Source of the DNA: Candidatus Gastranaerophilales bacterium
GTDB taxonomy: Bacteria; Cyanobacteriota; Vampirovibrionia; Gastranaerophilales; Gastranaerophilaceae
Assembly (NCBI GenBank): GCA_947625495.1
Contig: CANQOQ010000015.1
Location: 1 to 35,454, forward strand
Direction: 5' to 3'
DNA: 35,454 nt
In this document: piece after piece, positions 17,942 through 20,215 of the stretch
Numbering within the stretch: position 1 is the first letter of the stretch
How the letters are laid out: the number at the start of each line of letters is the position of its first letter
Made by a program: the position numbers and the translations under genes
The notes under the pieces: generated by a model
The model's input: only the letters and a program-made list of their open reading frames with translations
Database searches by the model: none
What the model was told of the DNA's origin: nothing

Positions 17942-19000
17942 TTATTCTTCATTTTTAATACTTAAACTAATTCTTCTGTCATCAGGATTAAATTTAAGAA
18001 TAGTAGTAAGAATTTTATCACCGACTTTAAGAATAACATCTTTTTGATTTTGATATTCAATCAATTCATTGTTAGGTAAAAGCGCCTCAACACCCGGGCA
18101 TACTTCAACAAAAGCACCAAAATGTTTAATTCTGGTAACAATGCCTTCTACTTTATCACCGTCTTTAATTTTATCTTTTGCTTCAAGCCAAGGATCTTTT
18201 TCAAGATTTTTCAGACTCAAACTTATTCTTTGTTTATCTTGGTCAATAACAATAACTTCAACATTAATAACATCACCGACTTTTAAGATATCTGAAGGAT
18301 GGTCGACCCATCTCCAAGAGATTTGAGAAAGCGGTAATAAAGCATCAACACCGCCGATATCAATAAATGCACCGAAGTCAGTAATTCTAACCACTTCACC
18401 TTTAACAATCTGCCCGACTTCTATGGATTCAAACAAATCTTTTTTTGTTTCTTCTTTATCTTCGGAATAAACTTTTCTGTTTGATAGAATAAAATTACCC
18501 TGCTGAATATCCATAGTAAGGATTTTAAGTTCAAGTTTATCACCTATAGAAGCTTCACCTTGTTTCAATTTCAACTGGCTGGAAGGAACAAAACCTCTTA
18601 CACCTTTAACTTCAACAAGAACACCGCCTTTAACAATTGATACAATAACACCTTCAACTACGGCGTCTTCTGCTTTTAATTTTTCAAGTTCACGCCAGTT
18701 ATAAGCAAGAGCAACTTTTTTATAAGAGAGCATGAATCTTCCGTCTTCATCTTCTTCTCTGATTATAAGAAATTCATATTCCTGATTTTTTTTCAAAGTA
18801 TCTTCAAGCGAAACAGATTTATCAACAACAGCTTCTTTTGAGGGAACATAAGCAGATGTTTTAGCACCTATATCAACAATAACTCCAGTGGAGTCATAAG
18901 AACATACTATTCCTTTTACAAGATCTCCTTTTTGAAAACTATAATCATATTTATTGAGCAATGTCTCAAATTCAGCGTCCGTATACTTTTGTTCACTCAT
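17942..19000 (-). CDS. rpsA: Ribosomal protein S1-type RNA-binding protein with four S1 domains
   Basis: S1 helps the 30S subunit capture and unfold mRNA. The 352-residue protein has four S1 (OB-fold) repeats at about 24-95, 112-175, 193-262 and 278-348, seen from repeated patterns such as GDLVKGIVCSYDSTGVIVDI, GQIVKGEVVRITDFGAFIDI and GDKVEGIVTRIKHFGAFVEV. Each repeat ends in a RISLSLKN-like strand. Enterobacterial S1 has six repeats, while four-repeat versions occur in several other phyla. The start at 19000 is preferred because GGAG lies 8 bases before it; the ATG at 19024 has none. Good TTTACA/TACAAT boxes lie upstream. The gene stands between the rplU promoter and a non-coding stretch. 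Confidence 0.92.
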   Translation of the reverse strand: MSEQKYTDAEFETLLNKYDYSFQKGDLVKGIVCSYDSTGVIVDIGAKTSAYVPSKEAVVDKSVSLEDTLKKNQEYEFLIIREEDEDGRFMLSYKKVALAYNWRELEKLKAEDAVVEGVIVSIVKGGVLVEVKGVRGFVPSSQLKLKQGEASIGDKLELKILTMDIQQGNFILSNRKVYSEDKEETKKDLFESIEVGQIVKGEVVRITDFGAFIDIGGVDALLPLSQISWRWVDHPSDILKVGDVINVEVIVIDQDKQRISLSLKNLEKDPWLEAKDKIKDGDKVEGIVTRIKHFGAFVEVCPGVEALLPNNELIEYQNQKDVILKVGDKILTTILKFNPDDRRISLSIKNEE

Positions 19001-19042
19001 CTTTTTTACTCCGTAAACTATCATTAATTTTTTATAAAAAGT

Positions 19043-19110: not shown

Positions 19111-19153
19111 TATGTTAGTCAGTCCTATAACAGATTTAAGCCTGACTAACATA
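19111..19153. repeat. 12-bp perfect inverted repeat in the rpsA / sigma-factor gap
   Basis: TATGTTAGTCAG (19111-19122) and CTGACTAACATA (19142-19153) are perfect complements with a 19-base loop. They lie in the 318-base region between rpsA and the RpoD-like sigma gene, upstream of the rpsA promoter. There is no immediate T-run on either strand, so it is not a standard intrinsic terminator. It could end the sigma transcript by another route or bind a regulator. Apart from this, the GC-rich segment at 19174-19327 and the rpsA promoter, I see nothing in this 318-base stretch. Confidence 0.6.
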
Positions 19154-19173
19154 ATAAATCACTTTGTATAATT

Positions 19174-19327
19174 ATATTTAATACAAAATTTAATCTAGTG
19201 TCGCACTCTACCACCGACTCCTCGTCGCTGTACGAGTGCTCACCTTTTCAATAACGTCACTCTCAAAATTTTACTCACACCACTTCGTGTCTTATCGTAA
19301 AATTTTGTTCGGACATATTTAATACAA
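19174..19327. repeat. GC-rich hairpin segment flanked by 13-bp direct repeats (MITE-like candidate)
   Basis: The 13-mer ATATTTAATACAA occurs at 19174-19186 and again at 19315-19327. Between them lie 128 bases that are clearly richer in GC than the flanks in their first half and carry three self-complementary elements: AGTG-TCG-CACT, CTCGT...ACGAG, and an 11-bp pair CAAAATTTTAC/GTAAAATTTTG enclosing a nested ACAC...GTGT. The second 13-mer contains the stop codon of the sigma gene. Identical flanks look like a target-site duplication from insertion of a small non-autonomous element at the gene's end. No terminal inverted repeats and no open frame were found. An interspersed repeat or a small RNA are alternatives. 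Confidence 0.5.
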
Positions 19328-20215
19328 GTAAGTATATCTTAAATTGAATGCACTATTATCTGTTTTAAGTTTATTAAGAGCTCTTGCTTCGGTTTGCCTG
19401 ATACATTCTTTTGTTACGCCATAAATTTTACCTATATCTTCCAGTGTTTGTTTTTGTCTGTCAAAAAGTCCAAAACGCATTATAATAACATTTTGTTCAC
19501 GGTCTTTAAGTTTATTAATCAAACCTAAAATATCTTTTTTCATAGATTCATATTCCAAATCATTTTGAAAAGATGATTTTTTATCTTCGATAATATCCGA
19601 TAATCTTACTTCGGAACCGTTATTAATTTCTATATCGGCATCAAGAGAAAGGGTTTGTTTATAAGCATTAAGGCAATTATTTATTCTGTCGTAATCAGTA
19701 TTCATTTTTTCTGCAATTTTCTCGGGATTAATATCAATACATCCTTGTTTTTCCAGTTCTGCTTTGATTTTTGAATATCTTGAAAGAGTTTCCTGAATAT
19801 AAACAGGAATTTTAAATGAATGCGATTGTTCTGAAATAGCTTTAAACATAGCCTGTTTAATCCACCAAGAGGCATAAGTTGAAAATCTGTATCCGAATTT
19901 CCAGTTAAATTTATCGACGGCCGCAATAAGTCCCAAATTACCTTCCTGAATCAAATCAATCATAGGAAGTTTGCTTGAGTGAATTACCTTTTTAGCAATA
20001 GTAATAACAAGTTTAAGATTTGCCTTTATTAATTTTTGTTTAGCTGCAATATTTCCCTCTTTAGCCAATCTTGCAGTTTCTTGTTCTTCTTCCAATGTAA
20101 GATTTTTGTATTTTGATATTTCTTTTATGTATGCATTTAAGTCTGCATCTGCAAATAAAGGATTGGAAACTACTTCTTTTTCCGTTTCCGATGAATAAAC
20201 ACATTTTAAAGCCAT
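19319..20215 (-). CDS. RpoD-like (group 2-type) sigma factor with altered region 2.4
   Basis: A sigma-70 factor of 298 residues with a short N-terminus, region 1.2 (LNAYIKEISKYKNLT), region 2 (DLIQEGNLGLIAAVDKF, then YRFSTYASWWIKQAMFKAI), region 3 and region 4.2 (TLEDIGKIYGVTKECIRQTEA). It lacks the large region 1.1 of primary sigma factors, suggesting a non-essential paralogue. In region 2.4 the usual QAITRAIADQ reads QAMFKAISEQ, so the Thr that helps read the -10 element is Phe. AGGAG lies 7 bases before the ATG. The leader is about 134 bases long with a 7-bp hairpin. Its stop lies inside one of the 13-bp direct repeats. It is divergent from the large helicase gene. Confidence 0.9.
   Translation of the reverse strand: MALKCVYSSETEKEVVSNPLFADADLNAYIKEISKYKNLTLEEEQETARLAKEGNIAAKQKLIKANLKLVITIAKKVIHSSKLPMIDLIQEGNLGLIAAVDKFNWKFGYRFSTYASWWIKQAMFKAISEQSHSFKIPVYIQETLSRYSKIKAELEKQGCIDINPEKIAEKMNTDYDRINNCLNAYKQTLSLDADIEINNGSEVRLSDIIEDKKSSFQNDLEYESMKKDILGLINKLKDREQNVIIMRFGLFDRQKQTLEDIGKIYGVTKECIRQTEARALNKLKTDNSAFNLRYTYLY

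Follow-up and report, generated by a model that had tools for sequence, protein, structure and literature searches.

A mobile, scarless two-hairpin repeat family within one genus of Candidatus Gastranaerophilales

What is the segment that a perfect direct repeat encloses at the end of a sigma factor gene in Candidatus Gastranaerophilales, and how did it come to be there? In the window, by which we mean the whole stretch of 35,454 nucleotides analysed here, the 13-bp sequence ATATTTAATACAA at 19174-19186 recurs without a mismatch at 19315-19327 (plus strand, as are all parts of the element described below). A reading made from the letters alone had taken the enclosed segment for a possible MITE-like insertion of distinct base composition and had judged such a match rare by chance even in AT-rich DNA. 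Both observations stand: 13 or more bases were shared by only 9 of 20000 random non-overlapping pairs of AT-rich 40-mers drawn from the window, and the GC content is 0.422 at 19188-19315, higher than in the 200 nt on its left (0.255) and in the whole window (0.302). Folded as single-stranded DNA, the segment reaches -16.6 kcal/mol (z -4.3) and none of 200 shuffles folds as well, which holds for either strand; the fold has two main hairpins and a small one within the second loop, so that the earlier count of three was fair. The sigma-70 family gene (regions 1.2, 2, 3 and 4; 298 aa) lies at 19319-20215 on the minus strand, which places its stop codon inside the second 13-mer, as had been noted, with the element just past its 3' end. 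The next gene downstream, at 17942-19024 on the minus strand, encodes an S1 RNA-binding-domain protein of 360 aa. This gene adjoins the sigma gene in most of the sigma loci compared in 19 relatives, and at none of the 19 does the 5' end motif of the element occur. The intergenic region between the two genes also holds, just downstream of the element, an inverted repeat that can be read in the window at 19114-19156 (GTTAGTCAG...CTGACTAAC).

The segment is far from unique. A blastn search of its own genome (G000) returned 45 pieces, many of which were chance matches or several parts of a single copy, with flanks unrelated between places; the element occupies about 20 places there, and a covariance model built from 21 copies gives 20 matches. 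In a first survey 26 of 58 genomes had a match, all of them among the 35 of the same genus and none among the 23 of other genera, while the covariance model matches 36 of the 41 genus genomes once or more. Ten or more copies are present in 22 of these 41, one to nine in 14, and none in the remaining five (G002, G004, G020, G029 and G031); the matches number 91 in G023, 84 in G060, 75 in G007, 70 in G030, 29 in G063 and 22 in G032. The idea of a structured interspersed repeat, with further copies in the genome and its relatives, is thereby confirmed, and the contrary outcome, a single-copy segment conserved in all relatives as the 3' region of the sigma gene, did not occur. Many public contigs bearing the 5' end pattern are labelled Candidatus Gastranaerophilales, although the pattern alone also matches unrelated organisms by chance. 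Carriage by phages or plasmids was rejected, as the phage and plasmid collections held no match to the element; in IMG/VR, six of the 68 stretches with the 17-nt 5' pattern were hit by the model at E 1 or below, with no score above 24 bits. The position of the copies is mainly intergenic (2 of 75 assessable copies sit inside an ORF of 100 aa or more), the neighbouring genes show no clear preference of orientation, and local GC skew, a weak test, revealed no strand bias. A 'founder locus' in few-copy species was likewise rejected, as the copies adjoin different genes, with a few common to several species. Three species have one copy in common, at a shared locus and flanked by the same pair of genes (L274 in G059, L275 in G018 and L277 in G001), which indicates that some insertions are old and inherited.

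The mode of insertion can be read from close relatives that lack individual copies. The nearest of them, G026, is 93% identical to G000 at one locus and supplies empty sites. Eighteen G000 sites were compared with G026, and six comparisons were clean: the window site, L028, L035, L036, L037 and L003. With the unit taken as ATTTAATCTAG...GGACA, the joined G000 flanks at the last five equal the G026 sequence at 89, 89, 90, 88 and 88 of 90 positions, respectively. In a second pair, 18 of 20 G023 sites were matched in G060 and four provided usable empty sites: the joined flanks of L379 agree at 86 of 90 positions, and those of L373, L374 and L377 fit with more divergence (78 of 95, 75 of 90 and 75 of 90). 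Since joined flanks match empty orthologous sites, insertion as a rule entails neither duplication nor loss. All sites in both pairs were classified by eye; among the remaining G000 sites, L040 and L047 are degenerate or truncated copies absent in G026, L030, L034 and L043 are shared, L033 and L038 are without a match, and L031, L032, L039, L042 and L044 align unclearly, while among the remaining G023 sites, L375, L383, L386 and L390 lack an intact element in G060 and have diverged flanks, eight have an element or a relic in both genomes, one is in opposite orientation (L382) and one is unclear (L378). In the case of L382 the G060 element, L395, occupies the same place, and either a flip or an independent insertion would give this arrangement. 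In element-less relatives two genes at the site of L003 (G000:C2:17108; L302-L334 region) are separated by a stretch with a conserved palindrome, TGTCTAGACA (or ATCTAGAT), which is probably a regulatory site.

The window site behaves differently from this rule. Its joined flanks are 13 nt longer than the empty site in G026, where the 13-mer is single, so that the 13-bp repeat represents a real duplication made with the insertion at this place. A relative with one 13-mer and no insert, which the sequence-only reading had proposed to look for, thus exists in the nearest genome available. Over 74 aligned copies, the sharing between flanks does not exceed that of randomly paired flanks, the window copy being the one copy with a long flanking repeat, and the duplication is therefore an exception within the family. 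The proposal of a small mobile element with a target duplication holds as regards mobility, and as regards the duplication at this copy; as the family's mode of insertion, duplication has to be abandoned. Comparison with empty sites also redefines the mobile unit as the 128 nt at 19188-19315, ATTTAATCTAGTGTCGCA...TTCGGACA, in which the final A of CGGACA is at the same time the first base of the second 13-mer.

The unit opens with the conserved 5' end ATTTAATCTAG (19188-19198), followed by TGTC (19199-19202), the left half of a predicted closing stem; then come hairpin 1 (19203-19240, GCACTC...GAGTGC), the linker TCACCTTTTCAATAACGTCACTC (19241-19263), hairpin 2 with its small inner hairpin (19264-19308, CAAAATTTTAC...GTAAAATTTTG), and the conserved 3' end TCGGACA (19309-19315), whose GACA forms the right half of the stem. 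The 74 intact copies share the 5' end ATTTAATCTAGTGTCGCA and the 3' end TCGGACA, a conservation that is overstated because the set was collected by these motifs, in part with a pattern including TTTAAT; some copies collected by similarity have CATAAT, TCTAAT or TATAAT in its place. Units are about 116-129 nt long and reach about 290 nt with the modules described below. The consensus fold of 21 copies (RNAalifold) consists of the TGTC/GACA closing stem and the two hairpins, with 96.4% of cells paired over 25 consensus pairs and 13 of the 25 changed on both sides. The alignment scores 0.328 for covariation, a value that none of 500 shuffles reaches (0.128 after shuffling) and that drops to at most 0.053 when the pairing partners are slid. 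The closing stem is not proven by covariation, since TGTC and GACA hardly vary. The compensatory changes would fit RNA and single-stranded DNA alike and cannot tell one from the other.

What could be the mechanism of scarless insertion? The left flank outside the unit is not conserved in the 74 copies, whereas the right flank has the consensus ATTTAW, in which the fourth position is T in 64 of 74 copies and the others are weak, and this consensus resembles the ATTTAAT of the unit's own 5' end. One possibility is that folding or circularisation of an intermediate juxtaposes the two ends, CGGACA and ATTTAATCTAG-TGTC, for recognition by a recombinase acting in trans. The unit would then be exchanged with AT-rich DNA over an ATTTAAT-like overlap of about 7 nt, which is our best guess at how it moves, leaving an overlap on either side and no duplication. 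For the window copy, the left join would probably have fallen at ACAAA and the right join at ATTTAAT, about 12 nt away, duplicating the stretch between them. We regard such an overlap exchange as a tentative proposal, rather under an even chance, as short matches of the kind from which the overlap is inferred arise by chance in AT-rich sequence. L003 has the CATAAT of the target at its left junction and TTTAAT at its right one, so that the overlap looks exchanged between them, as though resolution had gone the opposite way. TTTAAT on the right is found in 5 of 22 copies with an atypical left end versus 5 of 87 others (p 0.027), a signal that is weak because several of the atypical-end copies share one variant. 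Elsewhere, in G026 (L348, C118:2900-3966), a shortened element comes directly after a full one, with CGGACAATTTAATGTCGCA at the join, and the sequence of this tandem junction resembles the end-to-end junction proposed above.

Orthologous copies of the unit also differ internally, through extra modules of about 60-98 bp that lie in the hairpins or between them, including 60-bp modules that other copies carry at the sites between CTC and A of the linker. L030 has in G000 a 98-bp block in the loop of hairpin 1 that is missing in G026; L034 has a 60-bp linker block in G000 only and a 37-bp block in hairpin 2 that is common to both. A similar block of about 60 bp precedes hairpin 2 in G060 and is missing in the G023 orthologues at L376, L384 and L387. 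The orthologues of L043 and L389 differ by internal deletions with both ends kept, and in one copy, L006, the loop of hairpin 2 is inverted. The loops and the linker (after CTC) might take up modules by insertion, or gene conversion might carry modules from copy to copy, two sources of difference that cannot be told apart. Outside the element, at G000:C2:139223-139555 (L363/L364), lies a cluster of GC-richer blocks that resemble the 98-bp module (GCTGTCTTGAAATTCCTTTTCGCTCAAGC...GGATTTCATCCGTACGGAATTTCGCT) and recur at a spacing of about 226 bp; this is a second repeat system, pieces of which turn up inside the element too. Taken as a whole, a non-autonomous mobile repeat with overlap exchange and modules is our best explanation of the family; it falls just short of an even chance, and the 13-bp duplication in the window needs an extra assumption.

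Several other explanations were weighed. The genome-wide scan covered Y1 transposases and tyrosine recombinases. The unit might be a PATE, in which only the ends of an IS200/IS605-type element are left, moved as a single strand by a Y1 transposase acting in trans, which would agree with its two hairpins, its scarless insertion without inverted ends and the presence of Y1 genes in 6 of 20 genus genomes (G004, G009, G011, G013, G016 and G019). Against this, G000, whose assembly is 97.4% complete, has no Y1 gene; 5 of the 14 Y1-negative genomes carry 12-75 copies (G005, G007, G010 and G017 among them), while the Y1-positive G011 and G016 have two copies each and G004 none. Copy number does not correlate with Y1 transposases in the 20 genomes (rho 0.02), the Y1 loci (L259-L270) lack the 5' end motif of the element, and the flanks show a single strongly conserved position, on the right, with no conserved tetra- or pentanucleotide on the left. 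Y1 as the mover was thus rejected as absent or unlinked, and a derivation of this type appears unlikely.

Mobilisation by host tyrosine recombinases of the XerC/XerD type, in the manner of Xer-exploiting elements or folded integron sites, is somewhat less likely still. A 7-nt overlap would suit exchange by a tyrosine recombinase, and these enzymes occur in all 41 genus genomes, with proteins of about 291 and 301-321 aa listed in nearly all; the many-copy genomes G060 (84 copies), G030 (70), G063 (29) and G032 (22) have two matches each and no more. The same genes, however, are present in the five zero-copy genomes, and dif is one site, while the insertions of the element are dispersed. A dedicated integrase was rejected as well, given the lack of correlation between copy number and tyrosine recombinases in the 41 genomes (rho -0.11). 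In the fetched loci a long transposon with the same ends was also rejected: pairs of ends more than 300 nt apart enclose ordinary genes or separate copies, and the long intervals examined between ends contain no transposase.

The real duplication at the window copy, single in G026, together with the complementarity of TGTC and GACA, could still point to a classical MITE, formed by deletion from an insertion sequence with a DDE transposase, whose inverted ends would be TGTC...GACA and whose target duplications would measure 12-13 bp. We find this improbable, as none of the five other exact empty sites and none of the other 73 of the 74 copies shows a duplication, and the complementary end bases number only four and lie inside the left boundary, which does not amount to true terminal inverted repeats. 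Least probable is that the segment is kept for its function, as a structured RNA gene or a regulatory element, and is not mobile, which would account for the strong covariation, the mainly intergenic position and the loci at which several species have a copy, but hardly for exact empty sites in close relatives, 0 to 91 copies within one genus, unrelated flanks and the lack of an Rfam match (in the window at the gathering score, and up to E 1 on the element in three loci); individual copies may have a secondary role.

With its many copies, exact scarless empty sites, conserved ends, two-hairpin fold and modules present or absent at orthologous sites, the segment almost certainly belongs to a mobile, scarless repeat family within one genus of Candidatus Gastranaerophilales. 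In the literature searched, which included few subscription journals, there is no report of such a family in Gastranaerophilales. A bolder reading, which we consider doubtful, is that of an undescribed transposition system in which a folded scarless element, exchanged over AT-rich overlaps by a host or unknown recombinase, acts as a platform for modules between CTC and A, giving rise to nested mosaics and to bursts of about 90 copies per genome. What is known of these non-photosynthetic animal-gut relatives of cyanobacteria comes mostly from assembled genomes, and a dispersed element that leaves neither scar nor duplication and has no visible transposase poses the testable question of which enzyme moves it. 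Full, empty and module-bearing orthologous sites in close relatives offer ready assays and population markers.

How does the family compare with known systems? BOX elements of pneumococcus are modular, with a constant frame and variable internal blocks, and the present element shares their modularity, albeit with unrelated sequence and with different modules at different positions of the frame. A possible short-overlap exchange and a folded single-stranded substrate recall Xer-exploiting elements and integron attC sites, from which the element differs in its dispersed, AT-rich targets and the lack of a linked integrase. REP/RAYT repeats (PMC3733652) are likewise dispersed, palindromic, covarying and extragenic; our element is much longer (116-129 nt, two hairpins) with both ends fixed, as ATTTAATCTAG and TCGGACA, carries no GTAG or CGTC tag at the hairpin foot, and no repeat-flanked RAYT gene was found at the Y1 loci L259-L270. 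On these tests it is not a REP, since no RAYT is linked to it. With PATEs (PMC7290912) it shares hairpin ends and the absence of inverted repeats and target duplication; it differs in the freedom of its hairpin sequences to vary provided that pairing is kept, in not inserting 3' to a fixed tetra- or pentanucleotide, and in having no linked or correlated Y1 gene, this gene being absent from G000, G005, G007, G010 and G017. On these tests it is therefore not a PATE, having no oligonucleotide target and reaching many copies in several genomes without a Y1 gene. Bacterial MITEs include Correia/NEMIS, RUP, ERIC and the Nezha elements of cyanobacteria, and they resemble our element (PMC3733652, PMC2229807) in being short, non-coding, dispersed, mostly intergenic, hairpin-forming and not self-mobile. 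In contrast to them, the element inserts without a scar, with neither true terminal inverted repeats nor regular target duplication, and no parent transposon appeared in the fetched loci. The lack of inverted ends and of a duplication rule means that, by the tests applied, it is not a classical MITE, so that the label 'MITE-like' fits its lifestyle as a short, multicopy, non-coding and mobile sequence and fails on the defining features. We file the family as a variant of the non-autonomous bacterial repeats, MITE-like by lifestyle, mechanism aside.
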